NCBI RefSeq assembly: GCF_036711975.1
Contig: NC_091969.1
Location: forward strand, 1,612,001 to 1,676,000
Length of the DNA: 64,000 bases
Direction: 5' to 3'
Source of the DNA: Onthophagus taurus
Lineage: Eukaryota; Arthropoda; Insecta; Coleoptera; Scarabaeidae
Positions 12,291 to 59,428 of this stretch are shown one piece after another (within the stretch, counting starts at the first letter, position 1; each line of letters starts with the position of its first letter). The notes under the pieces are model-generated. The model was not told the DNA's origin, made no database searches, and worked only from the letters and a program-made list of their open reading frames with translations. Made by a program: the position numbers and the translations under genes.

Positions 12291-12333
12291 TTTACAATTT
12301 AATGTTGTACACTTCTACTTGTTATGAAAGAAC

Positions 12334-40000: not shown

Positions 40001-42805
40001 AATATCACGTTTTGGGCACATTTTGTTTTTTATCTCCAACATGCTCCAAGATGTCATTTGGCGCCTGAATATCAAATATATGGTCAACAGAATTACCGGA
40101 TCCAAAAGTGATAGAAAGTTCAAACATGGCTCAAAACGGCGTATAACGTCATAATATCACGTTTTGGACACATTTTGTTTTTTATCTCCAATATGCTCCA
40201 AGATGTCATTTGACGCCTGAATATCACAAATATGGTCAACAGAATTACCGGAACCGAAAGTGATAGAAAGTTCAAACATGGCTCAGAACGGCGTATAACG
40301 TCATAATATCACGTTTTGGGCACATTTTGTTTTTTATCTCCAACATGCTCCAAGATGTCATTTGGCGCCAGAATATCACATATATGGTCAACAGAATTAC
40401 CCGAACCAAAAGTGATAGAAAGTTCAAACATGGCTTAAAACGGCATCTAACGTCATAATATCACGTTTTGGGCACATTTTGTTTTTTATCTCCAACATGC
40501 TCCAAGATGTCATTTGGCGCCTGAATATCACAAATATGATCAACAGAATTACCGGAGCCAAAAGTGATAGAAAGTTCAAACATGGCTCAGAACGGCGTAT
40601 AACGTCATAATATCACGTTTTGGGCACATTTTGTTTTTTATCTCCAACATGCTCCAAGATGTCATTTGGCGCCTGAATATCACAAATATGATCAACAGAA
40701 TTACCGGAACCAAAAGTGATAGAAAGTTCAAACATGGTTTAGAACGGCGTATAACGTCATAATATCACGTTTTGGACACATTTTGTTTTTTATCTCCAAC
40801 ATGCTCCAAGATGTCATTTGGTGCCTGAATATCACAAATATGATCAACAGAATTACCGGAACCAAAAGTGATAGAAAGTTCAAACATGGCTCAGAACGGC
40901 GTATAACGTCATAATATCACGTTTTGGGCACATTTTGTTTTTTATCTCCAACATGCTCCAAGATATCATTTGACGCCTGAATATCACAAATATGGTCAAC
41001 AGAATTATCGGAACCGAAGGTGATAGAAAGGTCAAACATGGCTCAGAACGGCGTATAACGTCATAATATCACGTTTTGGGCACATTTTGTTTTTTATCTC
41101 CAACATGTTCTAAGATGTCATTTGGCGCCTGAATATCACAAATATGGTCAACAGAATTATCGGAACCGAAAGTGATAGAAAGTTCAAGCATGGCTCAAAA
41201 CGGCGTATAACGGCAAAATATCACGTTTTGGGCACATTTTGTTTTTTATCTCCAACATGCTCCAAGATGTCATTTGGCGCCTGAATATCACAAATATGAT
41301 CAACAGAATTACCGGAGCCAAAAGTGATAGAAAGTTCAAACATGGCTCAGAACGGCGTATAACGTCATAATATCACGTTTTGGGCACATTTTGTTTTTTA
41401 TCTCCAACATGCTCCAAGATGTCATTTGGCGCCTGAATATCACAAATATGATCAACAGAATTACCGGAGCCAAAAGTGATAGAAAGTTCAAACATGGCTC
41501 AGAACGGCGTATAACGTCATAATATCACGTTTTGGGCACATTTTGTTTTTTATCTCCAACATGCTCCAAGATGTCATTTGGCGCCTGAATATCACAAATA
41601 TGATCAACAGAATTACCGGAACCAAAAGTGATAGAAAGTTCAAACATGGTTTAGAACGGCGTATAACGTCATAATATCACGTTTTGGGCACATTTTGTTT
41701 TTTATCTCCAACATGCTCCAAGATGTCATTTGGTGCCTGAATATCACAAATATGATCAACAGAATTACCGGAACCAAAAGTGATAGAAAGTTCAAACATG
41801 GCTCAGAACGGCGTATAACGTCATAATATCACGTTTTGGGCACATTTTGTTTTTTATCTCCAACATGCTCCAAGATATCATTTGACGCCTGAATATCACA
41901 AATATGGTCAACAGAATTATCGGAACCGAAAGTGATAGAAAGGTCAAACATGGCTCAGAACGGCGTATAACGTCATAATATCACGTTTTGGGCACATTTT
42001 GTTTTTTATCTCCAACATGTTCCAAGATGTCATTTGGCGCCTGAATATCACAAATATGGTCAACAGAATTATCGGAACCGAAAGTGATAGAAAGTTCAAG
42101 CATGGCTCAAAACGGCGTATAACGGCAAAATATCACGTTTTGGGCACATTTTGTTTTTTATCTCCAACATGCTCCAAGATGTCATTTGGCGCCTGAATAT
42201 CCCATATATGGTCAACAGAATTACCGAAACCGAAAGTGATAGAAAGTTCAAACATGGTTCAGAACGGCGTATAATGTCATAATATCACGTTTTGGGATCA
42301 TTTTGTTTTTTATCTCCAACATGCTCCAAGATGTCATTTGGCGCCTGAATATCACAAATATGATCAACAGAATTACCGGAGCCAAAAGTGATAGAAAGTT
42401 CAAACATGGCTCAGAACGGCGTATAACGTCATAATATCACGTTTTGGGCACATTTTGTTTTTTATCTCCAACATGCTCCAAGATGTCATTTAGCGCCTGA
42501 ATATCACAAATATGATCAACAGAATTACCGGAGCCAAAAGTGATAGAAAGTTCAAACATGGCTCAGAACGGCGTATAACGTCATAATATCACGTTTTGGG
42601 CACATTTTGTTTTTTATCTCCAACATGTTCCAAGATGTCATTTGGCGCCTGAATATCACAAATATGGTCAACAGAATTATCGGAACCGAAAGTGATAGAA
42701 AGTTCAAACATGGTTCAGAACGGCGTATAACGTCATAATATCACGTTTTGAGCACATTTTGTTTTTTATCTCCAACATGCTCCAAGATGTCATTTGGCGC
42801 CTGAA
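13069..42805. repeat. 152-bp satellite array, about 196 units
   Basis: Head-to-tail units begin at CCTGAA (13069, 13221, and so on; last at 42648 and 42800). Unit variants are shared over multiples of 152 bp, such as GGGTGCATT in place of GGGCACATT, GCTTAAAACGGCATCTAACG, CCTCAAAAGGGCG and TATCAAATATATGG. They form local higher-order repeats: a 5-unit block (760 bp) repeated at about 19731 and 20491, and a 9-unit block (1,368 bp) repeated at about 23059 and 24427. One unit near 31155 lacks about 55 bp. Frames of 65-103 codons arise only because the unit length is not a multiple of three; I see no gene. The unit is moderately A/T-rich, with a GGCGCC palindrome next to the insertion site. Confidence 0.98.
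42800..42805. repeat. Target-site duplication CCTGAA, left side of copy 2
   Basis: The satellite reads ...GGCGCCTGAA and then the element begins AGTAGTATAG. The same CCTGAA follows the right end at 60164-60169 (and at 13069-13074 for copy 1) and continues into TATCAC as in an uninterrupted unit. Removing the element and one CCTGAA restores the 152-bp phase. Six-base duplications are the Polinton hallmark. Confidence 0.95.
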
Positions 42806-43383
42806 AGTAGTATAGATTCGCTGATTCAAGAACCTCCTCCTCGAACCTGCGTTCTAGGAGGAGGTTCTTGAATCGGCAAATTTTTTGGGGGTCAGAGGAG
42901 GTTCGATGAGGAGAGGAGGTTCTTGAATCGGCGATTCTTTTGAGGGTCGGAGGAGGTCAATTTACTTGAGAAGGTCATGTTATTTTGACGAAATTATTAA
43001 AAATTTATCTTTATTAAAAATGTATCTTTATTTAGGTTATGTTATTAAAAATTTATCTTTATATGTAACCTGTTTACCTAGATGAAAACAATTACTATGT
43101 TTATCCTTCGACGCTTCTCAATGAACTGTTAATGTTTTCGATATATCTCTTAATTTATTATTATACACAAAGGTATACGGTTTTGAGATATGTAGGTATA
43201 CAAATAAGTGAGTCATAACTTACCTGCGAGATATTTTTTATTTTATTATGTAAAGGTGTACGGGTATTTAAGAATATGCGAGGAGGTTCTTGAATCGGCA
43301 AATTTTTTGGGAGGACAGGTTTGAGGAGGAGGTCAACTAACTTGTTAGTAGATGAGTCATGATCCACCTGCGAGATATTTTTT
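42806..43383. repeat. Left terminal inverted repeat, copy 2
   Basis: It begins AGTAGTATAGATTCG and mirrors 59564-60163, with scattered mismatches and a gap of about 21 bp near 42957. A hairpin formed by GATTCAAGAACCTCCTCCT and its inverted copy spans 42818-42873. Further single copies of the 17-bp motif lie near 42920 and 43280. There is no gene; a short minus-strand frame here is not supported. Confidence 0.93.
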
Positions 43384-43654
43384 AAGAGCTTCTTAATAAA
43401 TTTGTCATGCGTTTTGTCTGACGTCTCACGATATAATGACGTGTTAGAACATGTATAATAGATATATTCGGTAATGATGTGAAATATTACTCCCCCCCGC
43501 CAGCAACCTTATGTATTGCTATAAATACAAACGTTGGTCGAAGTTGTACCGCAGAGTGTTGTGCTTCAGAGTAAGGTTTTTGTGTATTTAGTACATATTA
43601 AAAATATCGTGTAGATTTTTGGTGCATTTAGTACAGAGGATTTTTAACGTAACG
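43384..43654 (+). promoter_or_regulatory. Left-end promoter region with TATA box at 43520
   Basis: TATAAATA at 43520-43527 precedes a likely start site near 43553. The leader then runs to a donor GAGTAAGT at 43654-43661 (intron GT at 43656). A second possible intron (GTAAGG near 43571 to TTTAG near 43630) would shorten the leader further. No gene is seen between the TIR and 43655. Confidence 0.55.
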
Positions 43655-43950
43655 AGTAAGTAATTCAAATGTAATACAAGTAGATAATGTACTAATGTAA
43701 ACAATAATATTGATGTTTAGTGGCAACCAGACCGAACCCCAAATGTCCAACTAAGAGAGCTGCTGTAAATTCATTTGAAAAGGGTGAAAATAAAAAACCT
43801 GCCCGAAACATCAAAATGGAGGGTAATTGTAATGAGACAACTGCAACAAATGTGTCGCTAGGAAGTGATAATCAAAGAAAAAAGGATGTGGTCAACAACA
43901 AATCAACAACATTATGTAGAAAATTGTGGAAAGTTACCTTTCACAAGTAA
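43655..43950 (+). CDS. 76-aa basic ORF with start codon split by an intron
   Basis: A 65-bp intron 43656-43720 (GTAAGT...GTTTAG) joins A43655 to TG at 43721-43722, creating the ATG only in the spliced message. The product starts MATRPNPKCPTKRAAVNSFE and is hydrophilic, rich in Lys and Asn, with no recognised domain. Its 3' part overlaps the next frame (228 aa) in another phase. Either this is a separate small protein or it is the N-terminus of the 228-aa protein cut off by a frameshift. The split start is directly visible; translation is inferred. Confidence 0.45.
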
Positions 43951-44572
43951 CGTAGTATTAAATGAGGCAGTGAAAAATAATCTCCAAAAAGGTAATCAAG
44001 CGCCATTATTCTCCGAGAGTACATATTATTTAAATAAAAGTCGAACGAAATGGATATCGGTTGGCATGTCTGCCAATCTACATTTTGATCCGGTTATAAG
44101 ATTAATGGGAAAAGGACAATGCATAACTTTTACCGAAGACGAATGGAAAAATGTGATTAATAGCAGACAATTGATTATGAATAGTTTTGTTGGTGATTTA
44201 TCGGCACCACCACATTTCGTTGTAAGCGGCGTGACCTGCAGCAGCCAATGGATAGAAAATGTACGAAAAGTGTTGAAAATGGAAAGGGGGTCAGAAATAT
44301 TTTACCTGGCTTACGACTCGTTACACGAATTGTGGAAACTTAGCGACTTAGTTTCGAGTAGGGTAGAAGTATTAAAGTGTATGGAATATAAAAATTATTA
44401 CGATAGCGTGATCGATGTGGTATCAACAATGCAAGGTGATATAAAATCGAATATATTGGTTGCTTCAAACGGTGCACCACGTGAACATTTGTGCGTAACT
44501 AAAGAACTGCTCGTATACGGTATGGATAAGGTATTACTGGATTTAGATTTGCACGCATTAATGAAGATGTGA
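43886..44572 (+). CDS. 228-aa protein, arthropod Polinton left-end family
   Basis: The first ATG of the frame is at 43886; a non-ATG extension begins at 43862. The middle (TKWISVGMSANLHFDPVIRL, ITFTEDEWKNVI) weakly resembles the PC4/p15 single-strand DNA-binding fold, in which a beta-sheet is followed by an LT-x-EEW helix. The C-terminal half (YLAYDSLHELWKLSDLV, VLKCMEYKNYYDSVI) is helical. I recall similar left-end proteins in insect elements but no function. A DNA-binding or transcription role is a weak inference. It ends 10 bp before the PPP1R15-like ATG, so the two may share a message. Confidence 0.65.
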   Translation: MWSTTNQQHYVENCGKLPFTSNVVLNEAVKNNLQKGNQAPLFSESTYYLNKSRTKWISVGMSANLHFDPVIRLMGKGQCITFTEDEWKNVINSRQLIMNSFVGDLSAPPHFVVSGVTCSSQWIENVRKVLKMERGSEIFYLAYDSLHELWKLSDLVSSRVEVLKCMEYKNYYDSVIDVVSTMQGDIKSNILVASNGAPREHLCVTKELLVYGMDKVLLDLDLHALMKM

Positions 44573-44582
44573 AGTGAATAAA

Positions 44583-44807
44583 ATGGAAAAAAAAGTGACG
44601 TTTTGCGAATCGAAAAATAGAGTGTACCGAATGCACACTTGGACGTTTGCTTACAGACAATCAAGGATAAGTGACTGGGAAGAAAAGATGTTGGACGGAA
44701 TTAGATTTAAGACTAGGATAAGAAACGTAAATAAGTTATTAGAAAAATATTTAGATGTAGATTATAGATTAAATATATATCAAGAACGTTTTAGCATTGT
44801 AGAGTAA
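44583..44807 (+). CDS. PPP1R15 (GADD34)-like PP1/eIF2-alpha phosphatase adaptor (74 aa)
   Basis: The protein is essentially only the conserved core of PPP1R15. KVTF at residues 4-7 is an RVxF docking site for protein phosphatase 1. W20, A23-Y24-R25, R28, W32-E33, R41-F42 and R45-I46 match the eIF2-alpha recruiting helix of cellular PPP1R15. From W20 on, the spacings W-8-R-4-W-10-F-4-I equal those I recall for the human protein. Known viral relatives of this domain reverse eIF2-alpha phosphorylation and so keep translation going under stress or host shut-off; by analogy this one should act in the cytoplasm on PP1. The ATG at 44583 is 10 bp after the previous stop. The frame is intact. Confidence 0.85.
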   Translation: MEKKVTFCESKNRVYRMHTWTFAYRQSRISDWEEKMLDGIRFKTRIRNVNKLLEKYLDVDYRLNIYQERFSIVE

Positions 44808-45028
44808 TCGAAATGTTTTTAACTGAGTAACAATTAATTTTTAGGATATTAGTAGATTTAAGTGTAGCTGAATAATAATAATAATAATATTAATAGATTT
44901 AAGTATAAATTAAGAGCAAAACTGTTTTTGTAAAATATTTAAAAGGAATAAAAGCTTAAAGCACAACAGCAGAGCTTCATTTCTAGTTTTTAACTGTGAA
45001 GAAAAGGAAGAAGGAGTGAAATTATAAA
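44808..45028 (+). promoter_or_regulatory. Intergenic region with possible promoter of the virion block
   Basis: AATAAAAG at 44946-44953 is followed by an initiator-like TCATTT at 44977-44982, about 32 bp apart, and then the phospholipase-like ATG at 45029. The same AATAAA could instead be the poly(A) signal of the left-end genes. An (ATA)n run lies at about 44871-44890. There is no gene in the stretch. Confidence 0.4.
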
Positions 45029-45946
45029 ATGAATTTGTTAGAACCTAATCGTAACAGTTATCGTTTGACAGGCAAACGAATTGGTCGAGGATTTTTTAAC
45101 AAGTTGATAGATAAACTTCCGATAGAACTTCATTTGCCAGGATATAATTTTTGTGGACCGGGTACCAAGTTGGAAAAGAGATTATCGAGAGGAGATCGAG
45201 GCGTGAATCCATTAGACGAAGCGTGTAAGAAACACGATATAGCATATACGGTCAGTTCAAATTTAAAATTTAGACACGACGCAGACAGAGCATTATATAA
45301 AGCAGCGAAAGAACGAATACGAAATAAAGAGTCTACTCTTGGAGAAAAAGTGGCATCGTCCGCAGTTGCCGCCTTAATGAAAGCAAAAGTAGCGGTCGGT
45401 ATGGGCGTAGGTAGAAAAAGAAATCGTACGGGTCGACGACCTTTAAAAAAAGTCCGAACGCGTGTAAAGCGTGGTGGAGCTATATCTTTTGTAGATGCAC
45501 TTCGATTCGCTCGCAACGCAATATCGAGATCAGGTGCTAAGAATTTGTTGACAAACGTTAAAGCGGCGTACGGAGCTTTGAAAAAGATAAGAAAAAGAAT
45601 TTCCGAACCTAGAGGTCGAGTTATTCGAATTCCGAAAACGGGAGGATTTTTACCTTTAATTCCCCTGTTCGCAGCTTTAGGTGCCCTAGGTAGTATCGGC
45701 GGTGGTGCTGCCGCTATTGCAAGAACTATAAACAACGCGAAAACAGCTAGAGAGCAATTAGATGAAGAACGAAGACATAACAAGGCTATGGAAGCAAAGG
45801 CCGTAGGTAGCGGATTTTATATAAAACCATATAAGAAAGGTTGCGGTTTGTTTATTGAAGGAAAGGGGAATAATGTTGGCAGCACAGGTTACTTCAATAA
45901 GCCCTATAAGAAAGGTTGCGGTATAACCACTAGTTCAAAAAACTAG
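45029..45946 (+). CDS. Phospholipase A2-like minor capsid protein (305 aa)
   Basis: Residues 36-75 form a virion-type phospholipase A2 domain: calcium loop GYNFCGPGT (38-46) and the catalytic helix DEACKKHDIAY with His69-Asp70. Such domains let parvovirus particles leave endosomes. After a basic stretch (about 120-150) come two Gly-Gly sites (149-150 before AISF, 205-206 before FLPL). Then follow a hydrophobic Gly/Ala-rich segment (207-232), an amphipathic helix (about 233-258) and two KPYKKGCG repeats (266-273 and 291-298). This resembles a membrane-active minor capsid protein processed by the element protease. All catalytic residues are present and the frame is open. It leads the virion block. 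Confidence 0.82.
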   Translation: MNLLEPNRNSYRLTGKRIGRGFFNKLIDKLPIELHLPGYNFCGPGTKLEKRLSRGDRGVNPLDEACKKHDIAYTVSSNLKFRHDADRALYKAAKERIRNKESTLGEKVASSAVAALMKAKVAVGMGVGRKRNRTGRRPLKKVRTRVKRGGAISFVDALRFARNAISRSGAKNLLTNVKAAYGALKKIRKRISEPRGRVIRIPKTGGFLPLIPLFAALGALGSIGGGAAAIARTINNAKTAREQLDEERRHNKAMEAKAVGSGFYIKPYKKGCGLFIEGKGNNVGSTGYFNKPYKKGCGITTSSKN

Positions 45947-46322
45947 TTCGAATACCTCGTCGTGCGTTAACTAACGTCGAGTTGGAAAAGTTTGCGAAAG
46001 TACTAAAAATTCCACATTTTCGGGGTATATTTATGAGAGACAATCTCCCGAGTAAGATTAAAAAGAAGGAAAGAGGTATTGTTAACTTGGATAACGGAAA
46101 GGACGAGGGACTCATTGGGTCGCCTATAAGAAAGACGACAAGGACATATACTATTTCGACAGTTACGGTGATTTAAGACCGCCATTAGAAATTGAACAAT
46201 ATTTGCTGTCAGACGGTAGGGGTGGTCAAGTAAAGTATAATTACTGTCGATATCAAAGAGAAATAGATCAAAATTGCGGACAGTTGTGTCTGAAGTTTCT
46301 AAGTAATAAAAGAACCTATTAG
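45934..46322 (+). pseudogene. PRO: Adenain-type cysteine protease, frameshifted
   Basis: This is the Polinton maturation protease (Ulp1/adenovirus protease clan). The N-terminal part (LTNVELEKFAKVLKIPHFRG, FMRDNLPS) is in one frame to about 46107. The catalytic part (THWVAY with the His, YYFDSYGDLRPP with the acidic residue, and QNCGQLCLKFL with Gln and Cys) is in the -1 frame to the stop at 46320. One base seems lost in the GAGGGACT at 46105-46112. There is also no ATG before the conserved N-terminus; the first in-frame ATG, 46033, would truncate it. Only copy 2 shows this gene. It should be inactive unless frameshifting or splicing rescues it. Confidence 0.85.
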
Positions 46323-46352
46323 AGTCTAGAGACGTTTAGACGTTCAGAAGTA

Positions 46353-47084
46353 ATGGAGAAAGAAGCAATACACACGACATATACATTTACGTTGACTGGA
46401 AAGTCATCTGAATTGACTTGTAATTTTAATCCTCCGATCTATTTGAACGAATTTGGTAGTTACGAGTTGGCTCTTTTGAATTTCGAAACGTTTAATAGTT
46501 TAGCAAACGTTAATAAAAACAACAACGTAATCCAATACGAAGATAAGACAGGACATTTTAAAAACAATATAATAGTACCTGTTGGAACGTACGATATTGA
46601 TGATATTGCCGAGTTCGTGAATGAACAGCTAGACAAAAGACACGCTAAAAGTGTCGTAATAAGGATTAAGGGGAATAATAACACACAACATTCTTTAATA
46701 AAAAGTACCCGTCGAATTAATTTTGCATGCGATAATTCTATAGGGCCGTTACTTGGCTTCAAGCCTCAAATATTACCTAGAGATACGGAAGTGGAATCCG
46801 ATTTCGTAGTAAACATAAATAAAACGAACGCCTTACAAATTTATTGTAATTTAGTGACGGGATCGTATAATAACGGAGTTCCCGTGCACGTTTTATATCA
46901 TTTTTTCCCAAACGTTCCGGCAGGTTTTAAAATAATCGAATCACCACAACTACCTATTTATTTACCGGTTTTAACGAACGTGATTAGTAGCTTAACAGTA
47001 CGTATACTTGATCAGGACGGAAACTTGGTAGACTTCAGAGAAGAAGAAATAACAGTGAGAGTTCACCTGAGATCGATAAATTGA
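46353..47084 (+). CDS. Penton-like minor capsid protein (243 aa)
   Basis: The protein starts MEKEAIHTTYTFTLTGKSSE and is beta-strand rich throughout, as a single jelly-roll vertex protein would be. Family signatures I recognise from arthropod Polintons are FNPPIYL near residue 26, LALLNFETFNS, the SIGPLLGF segment, NLVTGSYNNG and the ending ILDQDGNLVDFREEEITVRV. No signal peptide or membrane segment is present. It lies between the protease and the small basic protein, 30 bp after the former. The role as penton is inferred from family, size and neighbourhood. The frame is intact. Confidence 0.75.
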   Translation: MEKEAIHTTYTFTLTGKSSELTCNFNPPIYLNEFGSYELALLNFETFNSLANVNKNNNVIQYEDKTGHFKNNIIVPVGTYDIDDIAEFVNEQLDKRHAKSVVIRIKGNNNTQHSLIKSTRRINFACDNSIGPLLGFKPQILPRDTEVESDFVVNINKTNALQIYCNLVTGSYNNGVPVHVLYHFFPNVPAGFKIIESPQLPIYLPVLTNVISSLTVRILDQDGNLVDFREEEITVRVHLRSIN

Positions 47085-47107
47085 ATTATTTAAATTTGAC
47101 TAACGTT

Positions 47108-47299
47108 ATGACAGTGTTATATCAAAACAAAAGAAAGCGGTGGTCAAGAAGAGACAGAGCGAGAAAATTGTTTAATGGAGAAAACTATAAAGCGCGCGTC
47201 ATCAGTCAACGTAGCGGCAGTAGAAGACGATCCATTCATCGATTATCACCAGTCAATCGAAGGTATTTAGTTCAGTTAGGATACGAAGTGTTAAAGTAA
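47108..47299 (+). CDS. Small basic protein, copy 2 (63 aa)
   Basis: Same protein as at 14-205. Here the upstream context is visible: the frame opens at a non-ATG codon overlapping the penton-like stop, and the first ATG is at 47108, 24 bp after that stop. The TAATG overlap with the capsid gene is kept. Arg/Lys make up about a third of the protein. A DNA-binding core role is inferred only. Confidence 0.65.
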   Translation: MTVLYQNKRKRWSRRDRARKLFNGENYKARVISQRSGSRRRSIHRLSPVNRRYLVQLGYEVLK

Positions 47300-48558
47300 T
47301 GGACATTTTAAAAGTAACGGATAAGATAAAAACAGATCACTCTATCGTAAGTTATGAATTCCATTCGCATCAACCGTTTGGATCGACCACGTTCGATAAC
47401 AATGACGAAATTAGAATTTCAATTCCGGAAATAGATAATTATACTTTACCGAGCGAGAGTTATCTATACGTCGAGGGTAGCGTTCGTAAGTTAGCCGCGG
47501 ACGGAAGTATAACAAAAGATGACAGCGCAACGGGGCAATTGGTTAACAATCCCGTTGCATTTATGTTTAGCGATATTCGATATCTTATTAACGGAGTACA
47601 TGTTGATGGTGTGCGGAACATCGGTATAAGCTCATGCATGAAGGGTTATTTCTCATCTACGCAGAACGAGGTGGTGAAATTAGAGAACGCCGGTTGGCAC
47701 ATAAAACCTTGGAAAGATGATATAGCGGGTGTTTCAAAGGCTTTAGACAAAAATGGAAATTTCGGTCTTAGCGTTCCGCTAAAAACGTTGCTAGGATTCG
47801 CAGAAGATTTCAGAAAGATCATGATGAACGTTCGACAGGAACTTGTGCTAATTCGCGGACACGATGATACGGACGTCATCTTTCAACCAGCAGCCGCTCC
47901 GAACGACGAAAAATTGAAATTGATCATTAATAAAATTATATGGAGAGTTCCTCACGTGGCGGTGGGATTACGCGAACAGTTGGCATTAACAAAACTATCA
48001 GAAAGAAACGTAGACATTCACGTTCCTTTTCGATCGTGGGAAATACACGAGTACCCTCAATTACCTCAAACTACGAAGCAATCTTGGGCCGTCAAAACTG
48101 CTCCACAATTGGAAACGCCTAGATTTATAATCATCGGATTTCAAACAAATCGAAAGGGTATATTTAAAGGAAACATGGCATTATTTGATAATATAAACTT
48201 AACGAACGTAACCGTTTTCTTGAATGGAGAACGTTTTCCGTACGATAATTTGAATGTGGATTTTGATAACAATCACTATGCGATTTTGTATGATATGTAT
48301 TCAAGATTTCAGCAAGCATACTACTATCAAGAAAGCGAACCTTTGTTTTCACCGGAAGAATTTAAAACTTACGCGCCGTTAATTGGAATCGATTGCACGT
48401 ATCAACAGGAAGCAATACATAAAAGCGGAGTAGAAATAAAAATCGAGTATTCAACGAAAAATCCAATTCCGGAAGGTACGACAGCTTACGCATTAATTCT
48501 GCATGACAGAGCATTTGTGTATTCGCCTCTTACGAAAATGGTTAAGCAATTAATATAG
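47299..48558 (+). CDS. Putative major capsid protein, copy 2 (419 aa)
   Basis: Protein identical to the copy 1 capsid at 205-1464. The only nucleotide difference noticed is a silent T to C in an Asp codon (654 against 47748). In this copy the full virion order is visible: phospholipase-like, protease, penton-like, basic protein, capsid. This order supports the structural assignment. Confidence 0.72.
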   Translation: MDILKVTDKIKTDHSIVSYEFHSHQPFGSTTFDNNDEIRISIPEIDNYTLPSESYLYVEGSVRKLAADGSITKDDSATGQLVNNPVAFMFSDIRYLINGVHVDGVRNIGISSCMKGYFSSTQNEVVKLENAGWHIKPWKDDIAGVSKALDKNGNFGLSVPLKTLLGFAEDFRKIMMNVRQELVLIRGHDDTDVIFQPAAAPNDEKLKLIINKIIWRVPHVAVGLREQLALTKLSERNVDIHVPFRSWEIHEYPQLPQTTKQSWAVKTAPQLETPRFIIIGFQTNRKGIFKGNMALFDNINLTNVTVFLNGERFPYDNLNVDFDNNHYAILYDMYSRFQQAYYYQESEPLFSPEEFKTYAPLIGIDCTYQQEAIHKSGVEIKIEYSTKNPIPEGTTAYALILHDRAFVYSPLTKMVKQLI

Positions 48559-48631
48559 TGGTACTGTTGAAGCAACGTCATTTAGTGTATCTCTAAACAT
48601 CGAAGGAAACGTTTGCATATAGTGGTATATT

Positions 48632-49111
48632 ATGGATATTATGGTTTTTCAAAGGGATTTTATTATTTTGGACATTCAAGGTTTCACGATAAACGATGAA
48701 GAATTTATCCCAAAGGAACTGGCTTCTTACGACAGTAATCATTGTATAAGTCATTACGTGTTTCAACCTAGTCGAAGCTTTTCTTCACTATCTACCAAAT
48801 TTCGCAATACGGCGAATTGGTTAATGAGTCATCATCATTGTATTGATTGGAACGACGGGTTTGTTCCTGCGTCTCGTTTCGATGAGATCGTTTATTATTT
48901 GTGTCGTTCGACAAAAGTAGCGTACGTAAAAGGACGTGAGAAAGCTACATTTTTAAGAAGAATTTTAACAATACCGGTAAAAGAATTGCCGGAAAATGAA
49001 TGCAAATTGGAGGTTGGTGCGCCGATGTGTCCCTATCATAAAAAGAGACCAAGTATGTGCTCCTTATCGAATGTTTTTTATTTATTTTCATACGTATTCA
49101 GACATCTATAA
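48632..49111 (+). CDS. 159-aa conserved protein with RNase H-like look, copy 2
   Basis: Identical to the protein at 1538-2017 (LDIQGF, KELA, VKGREKATFL, Cys/His tail). A donor-like GTATGT and an acceptor 49 bp later lie at its 3' end, but removing that stretch shortens the conserved tail and runs into a stop, so I keep it unspliced. Function unknown. Confidence 0.65.
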   Translation: MDIMVFQRDFIILDIQGFTINDEEFIPKELASYDSNHCISHYVFQPSRSFSSLSTKFRNTANWLMSHHHCIDWNDGFVPASRFDEIVYYLCRSTKVAYVKGREKATFLRRILTIPVKELPENECKLEVGAPMCPYHKKRPSMCSLSNVFYLFSYVFRHL

Positions 49112-49167
49112 CTATATGTAAACGAATTGAGAAAGGCAGACGGGTAGTAGCGGTAGAGCAGTTCAAG

Positions 49168-49500
49168 ATGGAACGTCTTTGGCGGTTAGTTACCAGATTG
49201 GGACTTTCAACTTTTATAATTAATAAAGTGTGGGATATTATGGAAAGATACGAATCTGATTTATCTTTTGCGAATATTAAAAACTACGAATTATGTTATT
49301 TACCAATCGATTATTATATCAATAAAGTAAAGCCATTAGATTTGGCGGCGGTTTGGTTTAAATTACCGTTGAAGTATAGAAACGATGAGCGATTACAAAG
49401 CAAGCTGCCCTGTTTTGAACATTATAATTTGCCTCATTGGGAAACGCATATTGATGGTCCACCATCGGCAAGAAAGGATTGTTCTTTATGTATGGTTTAG
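49168..49500 (+). CDS. 110-aa protein of unknown function, copy 2
   Basis: Identical to the product at 2074-2406, with the terminal CSLC pair. Last gene of the virion block; AATAAA follows at 49540-49545. Confidence 0.5.
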   Translation: MERLWRLVTRLGLSTFIINKVWDIMERYESDLSFANIKNYELCYLPIDYYINKVKPLDLAAVWFKLPLKYRNDERLQSKLPCFEHYNLPHWETHIDGPPSARKDCSLCMV

Positions 49501-49545
49501 TATATAAACATTGTCAGTTATAGATTGTAAATTAATAATAATAAA

Positions 49546-49968
49546 AGATTGTAAAAAGTGTAAAAAGTTGTTTTAATTTAAAAGAAAAAATAGTTAATCT
49601 AAATGAATACATGGTATGTATACATTGGGTTGGGTTGGTATGACTTGGATTGTACATTGAAAAAGTATTAAATTGGAAGAAAAAAAGGAAGAGAAAAGGA
49701 AGAAAAAAAAAAAAAAAAAAAAAAAAGAAAAGAAAAAGGGAAAAGGATTGTTTATTGAAGCTCCTCCTATGCTCCTCCCATGCTCCTCCTCAGGCTCCTC
49801 CCAAAGTGGAGATGGAAGAGTGGGGATGGGAGTGGGGGAAATCTAAAATTCCCCCCCCGGTTGCCAGGAAAGTAGAGCCAGAAAAAAAGTACCCCCACTC
49901 TAACTCCGCCCATTCCCCACTCCTCCCCCTTGTCACGCCCCACCCCACGCCCCCCTTCATTACTCTAG
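49546..49968. other. Non-coding A-rich and C/T-rich spacer, copy 2
   Basis: Matches 2452-2874, including the long A run, which has the same length in both copies. No gene seen. GC boxes (CACGCCCC, CCACCCC) lie just upstream of the TATA box. Confidence 0.6.
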
Positions 49969-50004
49969 TATAAGAAGGCACCTCCCAGCCTTTGAAAGTC
50001 ACTT
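49969..50004 (+). promoter_or_regulatory. TATA/initiator promoter of the leader cassette, copy 2
   Basis: TATAAG at 49969-49974 and TCACTT with its A at 50001 have the same 32-bp spacing as in copy 1. Confidence 0.6.
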
Positions 50005-50719
50005 AAGTGTTTGTGTTCTTCAGTTTTTTGGTAAGTACAACCTTCTTTATTATCATGTTTATATAACGTTCATTTTCTCTCCATCACTACAGCTCTTTCT
50101 ACAACTTTCTCTTTTTTGGTGAGTAAAACTATATTTGTTTTGCATGTTTATATAATATTTAAAATTGTTTTTTCCACTCCTAGACATCCTTGCTCATTCA
50201 GCTTTCTCTTTTTTTGCTGTGTTTTATTTGGTAAGTAACCTTTTCTACTTCCATGTTTATATAATATATTCTTGCTTTATTTCATCATGACAGCTCGTTC
50301 TACTTTGTTTTTGTGAGTACAACTTGTTTATTTGTTTGTTATGTTAAATTGATATTTTTTTTCCCAATTCCTACAGGAGCTTACTGCTGATCAGTTCGAT
50401 TAGACCGATCAGTTTTTAACATCGTAATTTCAGCAACTTTTTTCTGGTAAGTATAGTCTCCTTTCTTGACATATATTGTTTTTAATCTTGTGTTTTTCAT
50501 TCCTATAGCTCCTTCTATTTTTTCAAGTTAACTTTTATTGGTAAGCATAACTTTATTTTTTCGAACGTTTTATCATTCATATCCTATCATTCAGCACTTT
50601 GTTGACAAGCACCCTCTGCAGTTAGATTTTAACGTGCAACTGTATTTTTCATCAAGCGATGTAAGTATACATGTTTTTTTTATTAAAATAAAATTAATTA
50701 ATTTTCTTTTCTTATCAAG
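50001..50719 (+). other. 5' leader with seven predicted micro-introns, copy 2
   Basis: Predicted introns: 50031-50092, 50119-50183, 50231-50293, 50313-50376, 50447-50508, 50541-50594 and 50661-50719. Intron 4 is 64 bp here because its poly-T run has eight T instead of seven. All donors and acceptors are the same as in copy 1, and no ATG lies in any predicted exon. Confidence 0.7.
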
Positions 50720-51712
50720 ATGTCTCAAGACGGTTTTAGTCAAATTGATTTAACTGCTCCGGGTTTCGCCAGCCAGGAATCCTTTCTGTTAAACAGTTTT
50801 GACATAAACCTGTTGAACATGTCGACTGTTGAGAAGGCTCTGGATCCAAACGTGCAGCCTAATGAGCAGCCGATGGATCCAAACGTTGAATCTAATGTGC
50901 AGCAAGCTACGGCGCTTCCAAACATCGCAGGTTCCTCGAAAGTCGACGATAAGAATGTGAAACACCTTTCACTTTCACTTCGTCGAAAGTCGGGGAACCG
51001 TGAACACCGGAAGAAGGGTGCAGGTGTGTGGTTACCGCCAGATAAGTATAGAGAGCTTCGACGGGAGACCCGTGCTCGTTCGCGAAGTACCAAACACAAG
51101 CGTGTGTCAGTTGAACCTGCGACTCTGTCAAAGGTTGAAGTGACACACTCGGAAGTGGCTAGCGGCGATGAGTCCAACGACTCTCTTTCTTTAATGGCGG
51201 TATCCCAACACTGCACCGAAAACCGGACATACCTTAAAGCTATTAATGCAGCTTTTGTTTCTAAGGCTTCTTCTTCTAAGGCTTCTTCTTCTAAAGCTTC
51301 GTCGATTCCCACTCCCCCTACTAACATAAACATTCCTACCATAGAAGTTCCCTCATTAAGCCCGAAAGTACAAATCTTAAGGGTGGACACAATTCCCGCT
51401 ACTTCAGTCATTTCCGATGTACCTGCCAGCCTTTTTTCAAATGCAATGTGTGCAGCAGTAGAAACAACCAAAGAGGAGATTTTGACCGAAATTAATATTT
51501 TGTATCAAAATTTTTATAAAGACCTTCATGCAAAGGTAGTTCAATTGCAGACCTCTTTGAGAGAACTTGCACAGTTTAGGGAAGGGCTGGCGTCGAGTTC
51601 TAACCACTCTTTAACAACGTCACTCGACATCACCGTTGCAACATTAACCGTTGAAATGAAAAAAGCAGAATTCATTTTGTCTTCTTTACATACTAATAAC
51701 TTCCCTTCCTAG
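50720..51712 (+). CDS. 330-aa Ser/Lys-rich disordered protein, copy 2
   Basis: Identical in protein sequence to 3625-4617: an acidic N-terminus, a basic central region, SSSKA repeats and a helical C-terminus. A long antisense frame (51471-50740) runs opposite it, but it reflects codon bias and has no homology I can recognise. Confidence 0.7.
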   Translation: MSQDGFSQIDLTAPGFASQESFLLNSFDINLLNMSTVEKALDPNVQPNEQPMDPNVESNVQQATALPNIAGSSKVDDKNVKHLSLSLRRKSGNREHRKKGAGVWLPPDKYRELRRETRARSRSTKHKRVSVEPATLSKVEVTHSEVASGDESNDSLSLMAVSQHCTENRTYLKAINAAFVSKASSSKASSSKASSIPTPPTNINIPTIEVPSLSPKVQILRVDTIPATSVISDVPASLFSNAMCAAVETTKEEILTEINILYQNFYKDLHAKVVQLQTSLRELAQFREGLASSSNHSLTTSLDITVATLTVEMKKAEFILSSLHTNNFPS

Positions 51713-51720
51713 CTAAAAAG

Positions 51721-52032
51721 ATGTCCGGTAGCAACAACTTCGGGAGGGTGCTCACGTTGGAGCGAAGAGTTGCGTCATTGGAGGTCAAAGTAGATACCCT
51801 GTTTCAGCTGGTAGGCTATATCTATAATCTTTTTTGCACGTTTTTAATTTCATAATCTTCTTAGGTAAACAGTATTGTCTCAGAGTCGGCAGTGGTGAGA
51901 GGGCAGGTGCATGTTCAAAACATGCACATACACCATTGTTCGACTGGGATAGAACCTCCGACACCGACACCTGCAGCGCCTCCGCCCCCGTATGAAGTGC
52001 GGGATGAGCAGGAAGAGGAGGAGGAGTGGTAA
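51721..52032 (+). CDS. Spliced 85-aa PPPPY protein, copy 2
   Basis: Exons 51721-51810 and 51865-52032 with the same phase-0 54-bp intron (51811-51864). It has the coiled-coil N-terminus, PPPPYEV late-domain motif and acidic tail of copy 1, unchanged. Confidence 0.65.
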
Positions 52033-52051
52033 CCATTTTTCCTCCTCTTCC

Positions 52052-52085
52052 TTAGGTTAGGTTAGGTTAGGTTATGTTAGGTTAA
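52052..52085. repeat. (TTAGG)n tract, copy 2
   Basis: Same four TTAGG units plus TTATG and TTAGG as at 4957-4990. The microsatellite that follows differs by one base (C5026 to G52121). Confidence 0.85.
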
Positions 52086-52138
52086 ATGGTTAAGGTATTA
52101 TACTTATTATTATTATTATTGTTCTTCTTAAATATATG

Positions 52139-52174
52139 TATATATAGTTTCTTTTGCTATATTTTCATTCAGTC
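52139..52174 (+). promoter_or_regulatory. TATA plus TCAGTC initiator of the ATPase gene, copy 2
   Basis: TATATATAG at 52139-52147 and TCAGTC at 52169-52174, spaced as in copy 1, 31 bp before the ATPase ATG. Confidence 0.65.
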
Positions 52175-52201
52175 TTATCCAATTCATTTAGTACGAGAAT
52201 C

Positions 52202-52906
52202 ATGATCGACGAGAAATTAAAATGTTTACCGCAACTTCTAACACTGCCTATAGTAAATTTTAGTAATGGTTCGGTCGAAGAACACTTTACAAGACACAGC
52301 AATTTATTTGGTGGAAAATGTAAGCGAGGTTTAATTGTAGGACCCTCAGGTGTCGGAAAAACAAATGCTATGTTATCGCTTTTAGTTGCACGTAATGGGT
52401 TGCGCTTCCTAAACTTGTACTTATGCTCTAATTCGTTATACCAAAATAAGTACGATTTTTTAAGACGTTTAATTGAACCTATAAAAGATTGCGGTTACTA
52501 TGAATTTTCTAATATAGACGAGTTCATTCGACCGGAAGATGCGAAAGAATATTCGGTAGTCGTATTTGACGATGTTTCCTGTACAGGTCAAAATGTCATT
52601 AGGGAATTTTTTTCGTATGGTCGACATAAAAACATTGATTGTTTTCTAATTTGTCAAAGTTATAGTGCAATTCCAAAACAATTAGTTCGCGATAATTGTA
52701 ACTTTTTGGTGTTATTTAAACAAGACTTAACAAATTTAAAACACGTATTTGAAGATCACATAATGAGCGATATGGAGTTTCATCGGCTAAAGGAAATTAG
52801 CGATGCTTGTTGGGAGAATAGACACGGCATCCTAGTTATTGATTTAGATTGTAGTGTATCTAAGGGACGTTACCGTAAGGGTTTTGATAAATTCATTGAA
52901 GTTTAA
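52202..52906 (+). CDS. Packaging ATPase, copy 2 (234 aa)
   Basis: Identical to the copy 1 ATPase: Walker A GPSGVGKT, Walker B VVVFDDV, intact frame. The ATG is set by the TATA/initiator promoter just upstream. Confidence 0.92.
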   Translation: MIDEKLKCLPQLLTLPIVNFSNGSVEEHFTRHSNLFGGKCKRGLIVGPSGVGKTNAMLSLLVARNGLRFLNLYLCSNSLYQNKYDFLRRLIEPIKDCGYYEFSNIDEFIRPEDAKEYSVVVFDDVSCTGQNVIREFFSYGRHKNIDCFLICQSYSAIPKQLVRDNCNFLVLFKQDLTNLKHVFEDHIMSDMEFHRLKEISDACWENRHGILVIDLDCSVSKGRYRKGFDKFIEV

Positions 52907-52957
52907 AACTAACGACTTCAGCTGTACAGTTCGTAGTAACTTCACATACATCATACA

Positions 52958-54127
52958 ATGAACAAGACGATAGCTGCAGAACTTATCGCGGCACGAGAAG
53001 TCGTGAGAGACAAAATTCGTTCTTTAAAAGAAGACTTAGAGGAGTCAAGGATTCGGTCGGAAACCGCATATGCACCCATCGCAAGGCCCTTACAGGATAT
53101 TGTCGCAAAACTTGACACTGTGCCTTTACTATCCATTCCAAAACGAAGTTTATCTCCAAAAGAAGAAAAATTGATATCTAAGATACAACGCTACTCGCCG
53201 GATATTTCTGACGTACCAGCTAAAACCGAGACCGAATATTTTATTCGAAAACCGAAAGTTCCATTAAAAGAACAACGACGAAAATTTGCTACATCGACTC
53301 CTGAAAAAAGGTTGGTATCTTCTCCCACGTCTTCTCCTCTTGGTCCATTAGCTCATGCAGAAGAAGAAGTATATGAAGTTCCGCCGGGCGAAGAAGAAGA
53401 ACTCCTCGATTCTAGCGAGGATACCGGAGCTCTTATTTCGGACGCACATAATCGAATAGAACGACTTAAAGATGAAATAGAAGAAAGATTGGAGTCTCCA
53501 GAGGTACAAGCCGCTTTGAGTCAGTTTCATCCTTTGCCCAGAACGTATATTGTTGGTTTAACAACTGATTTAAAAGATGATTATGATCGTTTATACGGTG
53601 TTCGCGAAACTCCCGAAGGTTTCTACATTGGAGTCAGTCCTGTTCACTTTGAGGATCAGGATATTCACGTTGGAAACTTCAAATATACGGGAACCGTTGG
53701 TTTATATGATTTACTATTTAAAAACGAACCGGGCAAATTTACAATTCAGGACATGCGCAACTACAAAGATATCTTACTACGTTCAAATGCTCCGTACATT
53801 AATTACATTCCAGAGGCAGGTATGACTACTGAGGACGACAGTGGGAAATTTCAGAATATTATCAAGCCTATCGTTGAAGGTAACAAACCCAAGGTGCATT
53901 GGGCTAAATACTGGCCGAATCCGAAGAAAAAAGTCGGTGGTGCATTACAAAAACAAGTCGTTCCTGGGGCTCTTATCGAATATTGGGACGAGTATTGGGA
54001 CGATCCCAACGAACTTGTCGACAGACTGCGTTTGTTGATGGCCTCGCAAACTGCAGGTCATTCTGCACATGTCAATGAAATATCATCAATAATATCGGAG
54101 CTAACAGAGGCCGAGATTATACGTTAA
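52958..54127 (+). CDS. 389-aa conserved Polinton protein, copy 2
   Basis: Identical to the product at 5863-7032: coiled-coil N-terminus, acidic linker, conserved central domain with GTVGLYDLLF, and a Gly-Gly-Ala site near the C-terminus. Function unknown; probably structural by context. Confidence 0.75.
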   Translation: MNKTIAAELIAAREVVRDKIRSLKEDLEESRIRSETAYAPIARPLQDIVAKLDTVPLLSIPKRSLSPKEEKLISKIQRYSPDISDVPAKTETEYFIRKPKVPLKEQRRKFATSTPEKRLVSSPTSSPLGPLAHAEEEVYEVPPGEEEELLDSSEDTGALISDAHNRIERLKDEIEERLESPEVQAALSQFHPLPRTYIVGLTTDLKDDYDRLYGVRETPEGFYIGVSPVHFEDQDIHVGNFKYTGTVGLYDLLFKNEPGKFTIQDMRNYKDILLRSNAPYINYIPEAGMTTEDDSGKFQNIIKPIVEGNKPKVHWAKYWPNPKKKVGGALQKQVVPGALIEYWDEYWDDPNELVDRLRLLMASQTAGHSAHVNEISSIISELTEAEIIR

Positions 54128-54196
54128 AATATTATCATAAATATACGACTCTCACATTTTTTGTTTTAAAACACCGACGTTTGTGAACTAGAGCAG

Positions 54197-54622
54197 ATGA
54201 GTTTAAGCAAGTTCGGAAAACATTCGTCTAATATGACGATCGATAAGTTTGGTAAACACGTACACGGACACAACATTGCTGCTCATTTTAATAAACGTGA
54301 AAACTTACAACGATATTTCAAACAACCAACTATACTTACGTTTAGCGGAGATGGAACTACGGATACAACGGATAATTATTACATTATTCAAAATTTAGGT
54401 TACGTAAGTAAATATATAAACTTTTTATATATTGGTGAAATAGTGAAATACCGATTTGAAGGAGACGTTGAAATGATTATTAACGGGAGTATCTTCGATC
54501 CAAATAAAAAGTTAAATGTTCTCTTCTTTGGAGATAAAATAGTTTGCAAACCCACAACGAAGACCACTTTACTCAAGAAACCATTTATGGTAGAACTGCT
54601 CATTGAAATATCCAGAAAATGA
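54197..54622 (+). CDS. 141-aa Polinton protein, copy 2
   Basis: Identical to 7102-7527, including the FGKH repeat at the N-terminus and the ATGA overlap (54619-54622) with the integrase frame. Confidence 0.65.
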   Translation: MSLSKFGKHSSNMTIDKFGKHVHGHNIAAHFNKRENLQRYFKQPTILTFSGDGTTDTTDNYYIIQNLGYVSKYINFLYIGEIVKYRFEGDVEMIINGSIFDPNKKLNVLFFGDKIVCKPTTKTTLLKKPFMVELLIEISRK

Positions 54623-55490
54623 GCGATATTAAAAGGTCCGTCGTAAACGAGTTGCACGCGTCCGCGAGGAAAAAGTATAAACGCAGACGTGTTATTATAA
54701 AAGGTTTAACGGACTTATTTCAAGCTGATTTAGTGGAGATGATACCTTATTCAAAAGCAAATGGTAATTTTAAATATATTCTAACAGTTATTAATGCTTT
54801 CTCAAAGTATGGATGGGCTGTACAAAAAACATACCGAAGAATCTGCAAACGGATAACGGAAAAGAATTTTACAATGAGGATTTTAAAAAGCTCATGTCAC
54901 GATATCACATCAATCACTACAGTTCATTTTCCAATTTAAAGAGTTCTATTGTTGAACGGTTTAATAGAACAATAAAAGAAAAAATGTGGAAAGAATTTAG
55001 TATGCAAGGTAACTATCGTTGGTTGGAATTGCTTCCCAAATTAATTCTGGATTATAACAACCAAGTTCACAGGACGATAGGAATGAAACCTAGCGAGGTA
55101 AATAACAGAAACGCATCGACACTGTTAAAAACTGTATATAATTACATAAAAATTGTCGATCCTTATACCAAAAAATTTAATGTCGGTGATCACGTCAGAG
55201 TGAGCAAGCATCGACACGCCTTCACCAAAAACTATACTCCCAATTGGTCTAACGAAGTGTTTACAATACATTCTGTTCGTAATACTTTCCCAACAACATA
55301 TCTGCTCAAAGATGCATCCAATGAAAAAATTATGGGTGGTTTTTATCGAGAGGAATTACAAAAAGTTAAATATCCTGACGTCTACTTGGTGGAAAAAGTG
55401 CTACGGCGAAAAGGAAATCAAGTGTTTGTGAAATGGTTAGGATTAGGTCCGTCTCATAATTCTTGGATCTCAAAAACTAACGTTCTTTAA
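54619..55490 (+). pseudogene. INT: Chromodomain integrase, broken, copy 2
   Basis: It carries the same internal deletion and frame change as copy 1, between GWAV and PKNLQTD. The D, D and E residues and the chromodomain are all still encoded, but in two frames. The identity of the lesion shows that it predates the 47-kb duplication, or that one copy is an assembly echo of the other. Confidence 0.88.
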
Positions 55491-55593
55491 AACGTATTTA
55501 AGCCCTATTTAAAAGTTTACAAGACTGTATTAACAATCGAACATTACAAATACATTATTATTATTATTCTTTACAATTTTTTTTAAATTAAAT

Positions 55594-58500
55594 TCATTTA
55601 TTCGCATTCAATCTTTTTATCAACCAATGACCCCACGCCAAAGTATTACATCCGTTCGGTAATATGTATCGTTTATCATCGCACGATGAAAGAGCAATTT
55701 TATTCTTTAATTCGGTATACATAGTATGAAATTCTGACTTAAAAATGTACATTTTTTTATGAACCGATCCGCCACATTCAACCACACGTTTATAATCGGT
55801 CACGCTTAAATGTTTATCTATAACATATTTCTTTACTCCTTTAGCCTTCTTTACATTATCATTCAACAAGGTGATGCAGTACGCCTTAGCTCCTGTTCCA
55901 ACAAATGACGTTATGCACCTGTTTGGATATTCATCTTTCATTCTTCCCAACACAGATCGACCGCGAGGTATATTGTGTATATTCTCTAACGGATAATTGG
56001 ACGTGTCAAAAGATTCAATATTTTCTTTTATATCCTCATATACATTGGGAGTAGTAATTTCTAGGATTAGGGAATCAGTATCGGTGTATAAAAGTGTTAT
56101 GTTATTTCCATATTTAACTTTTAAGTAATCATAGAAGAAGCTGTACATTACGGTTTTCGAAAGCTCTAATATACTGAAACCCACATACAGCGGTTTGCAA
56201 TAACGAACTTCCGCGACGTTCAATTGAACGGCTATCAAATTATCGCAAAATATTTTCGAAGATTTAAAATTTGGTTTAGCTATTAGGGCTTCCACGCCCG
56301 GTTTCTTATGACGACATTCCCAGTGGGTAACTAGTCTTATATCCACTCGCTTTTCCACATTTTCCATTGTCTTACCGTATACGATGTTATTCATTGCTTT
56401 GTAATGATTTTTTTCAAATTCATTCTTAGCTTTCGCACGTTTATCGGAATTGAAATCGATGTAGCTCCGCATCCAGTTGGATTGTTTAAATTCTAATACT
56501 CTGTAAATCTTCGTTAGTTTCAATCCGAACTTGATACACTGCTTTAGATTCACGTAATGAATGATGTATTTTGTTTTATTTTCCAAATTTGCTATTAACT
56601 TTGCATTTTTTGAACCTGGGGGTACAATCCGTTCTGGACAAAATGGCAAATCGTTGTGTTCATCATGTATTGCTTCCGGATACTCTAAATCTACCTCGAA
56701 CACGTAACCCTTTTCGGAATCGTCTTCCGTATTGTAAATATCTAACTTTTGAATCTCTTCATCTGATAGCCATCGAAATCCACCCGTCGGTAATTTTCGT
56801 CTGATTGCGTGTCCATACAAATTCGTAGCGTCGAGATACAAAATATAAGATGGGTCTCTGGTTTCATCAAATTCCATCATTAATTTATTGTTAGCCTTCG
56901 CACTGCGTTTAGTGCACATACTTAATCCACCGCGAATACCATTTTTAAAGAAGTGTAACATGTCTATGTCCGTTAATAATTCTAATTTTACCCCTGTCAT
57001 TCGTAATAATGCATCCCAACCGAAGCCCGGCGCTGTGAAGTAATGACATGGATCTAAAGAGTAGTACTTCATCGAGATGGTTCGGAAATTCTCAAATACG
57101 TCCGCCAAAAGTAAAACGTCAGACGTTAAATAAATGTCGCTATATTCGCCTAAAGTGCGACAGTTAAATAAGTTCCACACCGTTTGTGCACGACAATAAT
57201 TTTCTTCGGTTATACTATCGTCGCATAAAGTATTGTAAAAACTACTTCGATCTGGCAGAGCGGTAAGATTCAGCTTTTCGAATGAATCCACAAAGGAATA
57301 CGGAAAAACTCCTTTCTGACGTATAAGTCGAAACTGTTCTTCGTTCCTAAAATATTTTCTGATTTGAACGCATTGGTTGTCTTCCAAAAATGAACCCAAC
57401 TTCTCTAGCGATAAAGCCATAAACCTAAATGAATCCACAAATCTCAATTTCATATGAACCCGCCTTAGCTTTCCCTTGCTGTCAATGTTTTCTCCTACGA
57501 TAATTTTTTTCGAAAATGATATATACTTTTCTTTATTCTGTGCTATAACGTCCACGTCTTCTTCTTTTAATGCCATATCTTTCACAAACATATGACAATC
57601 GTAGTTCGAAAGATTGTGAAAGAATATCGGTATGAACTTTGGTAATTGATAATTGATGTTACATACAGCATGTGCGGGTCCTCTATACAACCCAGTTAGG
57701 TGATCATGATCGCACACTTTATTACCTTCTTTTATTTTGTGCGAACAAATGTGACAGATATCCTGCATCTCATGTATTAATCTATCAATAGGTGGTAATG
57801 GGAGCATTTCTTTTGGTTGGCTTAAATAATTTTTGTATATATTCAGAACGTCATGTTCCAACTTGCTCATGAAAATTTGAGCAGCATTACATCCGCGATA
57901 TATTTCAAACTTCGACAATGATTCGTCATATGAACATTTTATATAATATGCAAATGCATAAGGTTCGGGTTTGAAACATTTGACGGAGTATGAATTATCA
58001 TCGTTAAGTTCTGTTGCTTCCGCATCGGCGATCGGTTTCTGTAATGCTTCAAAATCTACATACACCACGAACGGTATTTTTAATTGTCGTTCAAAATTTT
58101 CGAACTGTAGTATATTTTCCTTTTCTTCATTTCCATATTTATTTATTTTCAAATTTGTTGTTGGTAAAATTGCCCTTACCTTGCTGCAATCGTCACTTTG
58201 ATGACGGATAAGTTTATTTTCTGACGTAAAGAATACCAAGCATCCGTCGCAAATAAATTTTTCATGACCATTCTGCGATGCTTGCGATGATAGTAATCGA
58301 GACAGATTTTTTATCCAACAATAGTGACTATTCCCGGAATCATTTGTAACCAATAATAAATTTATATGTCTTTTTTCTTTTTGTCGACATATATACATTG
58401 TAATTATGTCATAATTCATAACACCGTCTTTAAAATACTCATTTATTCCATATACATTAATAGATAGTTTGTTCTGCTTTTCAAATACAGGTATATCTCG

Positions 58501-58766: not shown

Positions 58767-58830
58767 CTAAATAAAATATTGAAACATTTATTTGTTAATA
58801 TATAGGTATATTATGTCACATTACGCTTAC

Positions 58831-59385: not shown

Positions 59386-59428
59386 TTTACAATTTAATGT
59401 TGTACACTTCTACTTGTTATGAAAGAAC

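Follow-up and report, generated by a model that had tools for sequence, protein, structure and literature searches.

We analyzed a window of 64,000 nucleotides from the genome of the beetle Onthophagus taurus; "the window" means this whole stretch throughout. Its right-hand part holds an element bounded by terminal inverted repeats, which lie in pieces at 42806-43351 and 59599-60163 (88-99% complementary) and whose ends begin AGTAGTATAG. Comparison of the flanks revealed a 6-bp target-site duplication, CCTGAA, with its left copy at 42800-42805 and its right copy at 60164-60169. Terminal inverted repeats with a 5'-AG end, together with a 6-bp target duplication, are the hallmark of Polinton/Maverick elements, and the element at 42806-60163 shows this combination. 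Thus, the gene studied here is carried by a real Polinton, as an earlier note on this DNA had claimed.

The gene lies on the forward strand at 44583-44807 and represents what we call lineage A of several Polinton lineages described below. It is preceded, across a 10-nt gap, by an ORF for a 228-aa protein without a Pfam match up to E 1 (43886-44572, forward strand), and followed by the gene for a 305-aa protein with a phospholipase A2-like domain (45029-45946, forward strand; PF08398, E 1.1e-12), a conserved downstream neighbour that we take to be of the minor-capsid type. Further along the same strand are the genes for the major capsid protein, with a double jelly roll (47299-48558; PF21738, E 5.6e-101), for a 159-aa 'ILDIQGF' protein that is unfused here and resembles, by eye, the IDxQGF stretch of the fusion proteins of lineages X and Y (48632-49111), and for an A32-type packaging ATPase (52202-52906; PF04665, E 1e-8). 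An integrase-like region at 54619-55490, also on the forward strand, consists of two overlapping ORFs and is apparently split. Support for an integrase comes from the lineage F core, which scores above the Pfam cut-off (49.1 bits), from a zinc-binding domain in lineage D, and in the window from likeness by eye to the lineage F integrase. The reverse strand carries a 1053-aa ORF (55594-58755) for a putative DNA polymerase, presumably a protein-primed DNA polymerase B, in which a YTDTDS motif is visible and Endonuclease_7 is the only Pfam family above its cut-off. Of the Polinton/Maverick gene set, capsid and ATPase are present in the window by Pfam and the polymerase by its visible motif only.

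The element is inserted in a 152-bp satellite, whose array occupies 13069-42805 and 60164-64000 with unit-to-unit matches of 94-95%. A second Polinton with nearly the same ORFs lies at 1-13068, truncated by the left edge of the window. Both elements have an identical right flank, CCTGAATATCAC, in the satellite, that is, they share an insertion phase or belong to a duplicated block. Each also contains a 330-aa ORF with a 223-aa ORF opposite to it (50720-51712 and 3625-4617, forward strand); this pair is unlike other Polinton genes and is perhaps an inserted element.

The earlier note had read the ORF at 44583-44807 as a complete PPP1R15/GADD34-like core, and its description of the protein proved accurate: the frame is open, encodes exactly 74 aa, and carries every named residue at the position given. 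These are K4-V5-T6-F7, an RVxF-type PP1-docking motif, followed by W20, A23-Y24-R25, R28, W32-E33, R41-F42 and R45-I46; we add a phi-phi-like pair, V14-Y15, and D38. The same order and spacing of an RVxF-type motif, a Trp and D-x-x-R-F-x-x-R-I characterizes the cellular proteins PPP1R15A/GADD34 and PPP1R15B/CReP. According to PMC4394352, V641 and F643 of the PPP1R15B RVxF motif, as well as R658, contact PP1, while replacing R658, W662, F672 or I676 weakens the response to actin, the R658 change leaving it "markedly enfeebled". Mapped onto PPP1R15B, the window protein has the Arg four residues before the Trp (R28, for R658) and the counterparts of W662, F672 and I676 (W32, F42 and I46), and the spacing of these four residues (4, 10, 4) is identical in the two proteins. 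As to the cellular spacing from the first Trp onward, which the earlier note had described, the distance of 12 between the two Trp residues equals that of human PPP1R15A in the profile alignment.

Next to these motifs, the scores of the window protein by itself are low. PF10488 (PP1c_bdg, the PPP1R15 core) is its best Pfam family, aligning residues 3-67 with profile positions 170-228 of 230, at E 0.0033 and 17.6 bits and thus below the curated cut-off of 26.1 bits. Its three PDB matches with E no higher than 1 are two to PPP1R15B (0.099 and 0.3) and one to DP71L (0.4). Such single-sequence scores alone would not be proof. Related lineages scored higher or lower than the window protein: X (27.7 bits) and D (26.4) exceed the cut-off, and B (23.3), C (21.3), A (17.6), F (15.5) and Y (12.5) fall below it. 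The check by profile search that the earlier note had proposed gave a divided outcome: the window protein alone stays below threshold, while D and X pass PF10488 and the family profile finds PPP1R15B and PPP1R15A. A profile of all seven lineages (A, B, C, D, F, X and Y) searched against the PDB matched PPP1R15B (E 8.5e-12), DP71L (3.5e-10) and PPP1R15A (3.4e-9), the next, unrelated chain following at 0.71. With A, C, B and X the values were 4.2e-10, 1.6e-7 and 2.4e-7 in the same order, and with A, C and B without X they were 2.7e-5, 5.9e-5 and 0.0017.

A further test ran a profile built from X, D, F and Y, and hence from none of A, B or C, over the window, in which 886 frames between stops have 40 residues or more. 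The frame at 44583-44807 was the sole significant one (E 5.2e-9; next 7.7), and the window protein reached 31.6 bits; its residues, shuffled 20,000 times, never gave more than 14.4 bits. Kinship with the PPP1R15 core thus finds support from profile searches run both ways, and by these comparisons the ORF is confirmed as a real PPP1R15-core-like gene, within a pattern wider than the earlier note had claimed.

This pattern emerged from a search of 290.8 Mb in 33 contigs, in which all copy counts are lower bounds. At least seven diverged Polinton lineages carry a PPP1R15-like core. The window protein gave at least 150 matches; among those listed, 47 are identical over the full length, 63 belong to lineage B at 50-53% identity, and 6 of 150 contain stops. 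Searching the whole genome with the PF10488 profile gave 88 places, 6 of them above the cut-off, one of those only together with in-frame neighbours. The search that found lineage D gave 78 rows in all, with 12 full-length ones of D at 94-100% and fragments; of the 70 rows from the lineage F search, 41 span at least 50 residues and are 74-100% identical to F. For lineage X, 8 of 73 rows are at 86-100% (one being a 30-residue piece); lineage Y has two rows at 50% and a third at 45% with a stop, besides single variants. Lineage C occurs as a single copy on C13 (L021), and C15 has a decayed lineage, E, whose frame contains one stop. The ORF and its kinship, the conserved key residues and the recurrence in diverged Polinton lineages are all computed results.

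Seven residues are invariant in all seven lineages aligned (A, C, B, X, D, F, Y): V5, W32, D38, R41, F42, R45 and I46. This set includes the counterparts of PPP1R15B V641, a PP1 contact, and of W662, F672 and I676, which affect the actin response. Conservation of the RVxF motif and of the Trp and Arg residues in related elements, on which the earlier note had staked its reading, therefore held in part. V5, W32, R41 and R45 never vary, and the last residue of the motif is Phe in 6/7 lineages, the exception being Ile in B (KVRI). In contrast, R28, four residues before the Trp, is kept in 3/7 lineages (A, B and C); D and F have an Arg five residues before it, and X and Y none there. W20 and the following AY are likewise found in A, B and C (as AYT in C) and in the proteins P0004-P0006 described below, and are missing from D, F, X and Y. 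A Trp aligned with W20 is present in human PPP1R15A and in DP71L, and not in PPP1R15B. Lineages A-C also differ from the others by one extra residue between F7 and the phi-phi-like pair.

Between A, B and C the adaptor-like protein is 49-53% identical, the upstream 228-aa-type protein 49-52% and the phospholipase A2-like protein 56-63%. NG86 estimates gave dN 0.39 and dS 1.36 for B-C and dN 0.47 and dS 4.40 for A-C, with dS undefined, that is, saturated, for A-B; maximum likelihood also gave high dS. YN00 ratios from Biopython (about 1.2 for A-B, 0.78 for A-C and 0.51 for B-C) indicate weaker constraint than NG86 and maximum likelihood. We give dN/dS little weight and regard it as better evidence that frame and residues are conserved between sequences about 50% identical. 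The identical copies bear little on selection, since DNA comparison of 20 of them showed no difference in the coding sequence.

The PPP1R15-like gene occupies three different positions in the elements. In A, B and C it lies between the 228-aa-type gene and the phospholipase A2 gene, with an upstream gap of 10 nt in A and 4 nt in B and an overlap of a few nucleotides in C. The X and Y lineages encode the core and the IDxQGF protein as a single in-frame fusion 3' of the capsid gene, with the core at the N-terminal side and a total length of 222-250 aa (L026:2989-3657; L030-L035; L069:192-944, reverse strand). In D and F the core gene stands beside the integrase. In F, moreover, 258 bp containing the core gene are repeated in inverted orientation at the other side of the element at 98% (L066:950-1207 and L070:1174-1433), the surroundings matching in short stretches only, and several F elements have such inverted core pairs about 8.6 kb apart. 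Lineage B has the tail of an X-like core in frame ahead of the IDMQGF gene (L022:853-1206) and, 1.7 kb downstream, a second and separate gene for a core of 74 aa, as if one copy had replaced the other.

How common the gene is among the Polintons of this genome was gauged from the capsid genes. Out of 332 candidate capsid places, 126 were scored and 206 were not; for 118 of the 126 there is an adaptor-like place no farther than 16 kb away, and for the other 8 there is none in that range. Five of the 118 places are more than 10 kb from the capsid gene and may belong to another element. By comparison, 2.0% of uniform random places on 11 contigs were near an adaptor, a control that ignores the clustering of elements. 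The 210 adaptor places used comprised 140 of the 150 rows found with the window protein, 56 of 78 from the lineage D search, 13 of 73 from the lineage X/Y search and 1 of 88 from PF10488, after removal of weak or repeated rows and of short pieces. As the copies are not independent, 118/126 measures prevalence and not the number of independent gains. A further capsid lineage with a 426-aa frame, found at C10:14144116 and C11:12460102, has the highest PF21738 scores in this genome. No core was present in the 3.5 kb 3' of the capsid gene at C10:14144116 (L071), and at C11:12460102 an adaptor-like place lies at a distance of 15.9 kb.

Outside this genome, a search of 5.8 billion proteins with the window protein returned one match, a 58-aa piece of itself, and profile searches of the same collection returned P0003, identical in its letters to lineage B, and then P0004-P0006. 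P0004 and P0005 show KVHF or RVTF, W..AY and DR.RFKKRIE, as in the Polinton cores. P0005, a 100-aa protein from a short contig, passes PF10488 with 26.6 bits; P0004 scores below the cut-off (20.5 bits) and P0006 has no Pfam match. Searched against the beetle genome, P0005 matches lineage B at 3.9e-7 and lineage A at 9.6e-5; it was found via a profile containing A and B, and its Pfam score is independent of both. P0005 thereby adds to the support for the kinship of the window protein with the PPP1R15 core. The contigs of P0004-P0006 measure 1.2-1.7 kb and carry no gene context, so they could derive from other Polintons, viruses or hosts. Among IMG/VR viral contigs no relative was confirmed with the window protein, a four-lineage profile or a capsid profile, in a search from which records near the source genome may be excluded.

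Baculoviruses and entomopoxviruses are large and are not Polintons; their PPP1R15 genes likewise belong to insect DNA viruses, and we liken them to the Polinton gene by description, not by sequence. The same holds for HSV-1 ICP34.5, likewise a viral protein of PPP1R15 type and a larger one with other functions. A table in PMC4411684 gives a PPP1R15A gene as common to baculo- and entomopoxviruses and of lepidopteran origin, and PMC4394352 and PMC10998612 present ICP34.5 as a viral PPP1R15-type protein. PMC4394352 also aligns PPP1R15-type proteins of herpes simplex virus and of a granulovirus (coGV gp036). A further viral comparison is DP71L of ASFV (PDB 9nb9, a chain of 71 residues), which was the second-best PDB match in all three profile searches. 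One Trp of DP71L aligns with W20, no AY follows that Trp, and its carrier is a large DNA virus and not an integrating Polinton. The earlier note's statement that PPP1R15 mimics exist in large DNA viruses is borne out by the DP71L structure and by PMC4394352 and PMC4411684. We found no report of a PPP1R15-type gene in Polintons, in a literature search outside of which most subscription papers and preprints fell. Viral PPP1R15 cores are already known; as far as we searched, the novelty lies in the Polinton as carrier, in the fusion and in the recurrence.

The PPP1R15 gene of the host was not found, which does not show its absence: the 88 PF10488 places resolve into 18 read in context and 70 coinciding with Polinton-lineage places, and the matches listed for A, P0005 and P0006 (at least 150 each) are filled by Polinton lineages. 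Two weak rows, C8:17736120 and C11:2554765, were left out of this reading. One candidate for a host exon, a 305-aa frame at L042, was rejected as lineage X with a different N-terminus. A TTAGG repeat turned up at a single internal place of the genome and was uninformative as to the taxonomic group of the host.

AlphaFold2, given a seven-row alignment, predicted strands at 3-8 and 13-18 and a helix at 31-57 (block means 81, 92 and 84), with a mean pLDDT of 76 and a pTM of 0.39. Foldseek found no significant match for this model in the PDB (best E 2.8) or in a viral library, where the best match was Shearwaterpox SWPV1-205 (E 0.31, 33% identity over 64 columns). The predicted fold fits a protein that would become ordered on its partners and proves nothing; for such a protein the Foldseek result is expected, and it lends the adaptor reading no support either.

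We consider it probable that the gene encodes a stripped-down PPP1R15/GADD34 core that would undo a host translation block via PP1, G-actin and eIF2-alpha. In contrast to the mammalian proteins, the Polinton protein is the core alone (64-74 aa in A, B, C, D and F), without the large N-terminal part. It can nevertheless be complete, since PMC4394352 describes a mammalian core of about 70 residues as sufficient to attenuate the stress response, acting with PP1 and G-actin. Our model suggests that the RVxF-type N-terminus and the segment following it would dock on the catalytic subunit of host PP1, while the helix from W32 onward would bind G-actin and set PP1 on eIF2-alpha phosphorylated at Ser51. 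The resulting PP1-actin holophosphatase would take the Ser51 phosphate off eIF2-alpha, and a translation block induced by stress or infection would be reversed while the element's own proteins are made. By analogy with the cellular proteins we infer PP1 and actin binding, eIF2-alpha dephosphorylation and a benefit to the element. Against this reading we counted the sub-threshold scores of A, B, C, F and Y, the exceptions at R28 and F7, the lack of a significant Foldseek match, the YN00 ratios, and the 8/126 capsid loci without an adaptor-like place within 16 kb.

Some of these features could also be expected of a PPP1R15-derived PP1 adaptor that has been retargeted from eIF2-alpha to another substrate, such as a protein encoded by the element. 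The fusion with the IDxQGF protein would provide such a target in X and Y, and the missing Arg before the Trp in X and Y and the missing Phe in the motif of B point the same way. However, the actin-linked residues W32, F42 and I46 are invariant in 7/7 lineages and lineage A is unfused, and we regard retargeting as unlikely. It is more improbable still that a PPP1R15 gene was once captured and that only its decayed remnant is left, with no present function and amplified merely as a passenger. The integrase of the window element is apparently split, and with 47 of the 150 listed matches identical over their full length the copies say little about selection, which would suit a remnant; yet the frame has stayed open in lineages that share about 50% identity, stops occur in only 6 of the 150 scored matches, dN is below dS by NG86 and maximum likelihood, and the gene sits at three different locations in the elements. 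Chance or convergent likeness of a short basic helix with an RVxF-like tetrapeptide, which the shortness of the protein and its weak single-sequence scores might suggest, is contradicted already by the profile and shuffle results (E 8.5e-12 to PPP1R15B; 31.6 bits against at most 14.4; one significant frame of 886) and is very improbable indeed.

If the gene is an eIF2-alpha phosphatase adaptor, its recurrence in several Polinton lineages suggests that these elements, like viruses, need to get past a shut-off of translation by the host. The capsid genes of animal Polintons suggest that they may live as viruses; an accessory gene that defeats shut-off would be an independent line of evidence for viral life beside them. 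On the adaptor reading one would further expect an eIF2-alpha kinase to restrict these elements in the host. Tentatively, and leaning slightly against it ourselves, we raise the broader possibility that the Polintons of this host carry the PPP1R15 core as a near-standard accessory gene, placed at three sites by repeated capture or relocation, and that these Polintons then are, or recently were, infectious viruses pressed by an antiviral eIF2-alpha-kinase response. If this is true, the number of PPP1R15 gains would measure the pressure of eIF2-alpha kinases on Polintons.
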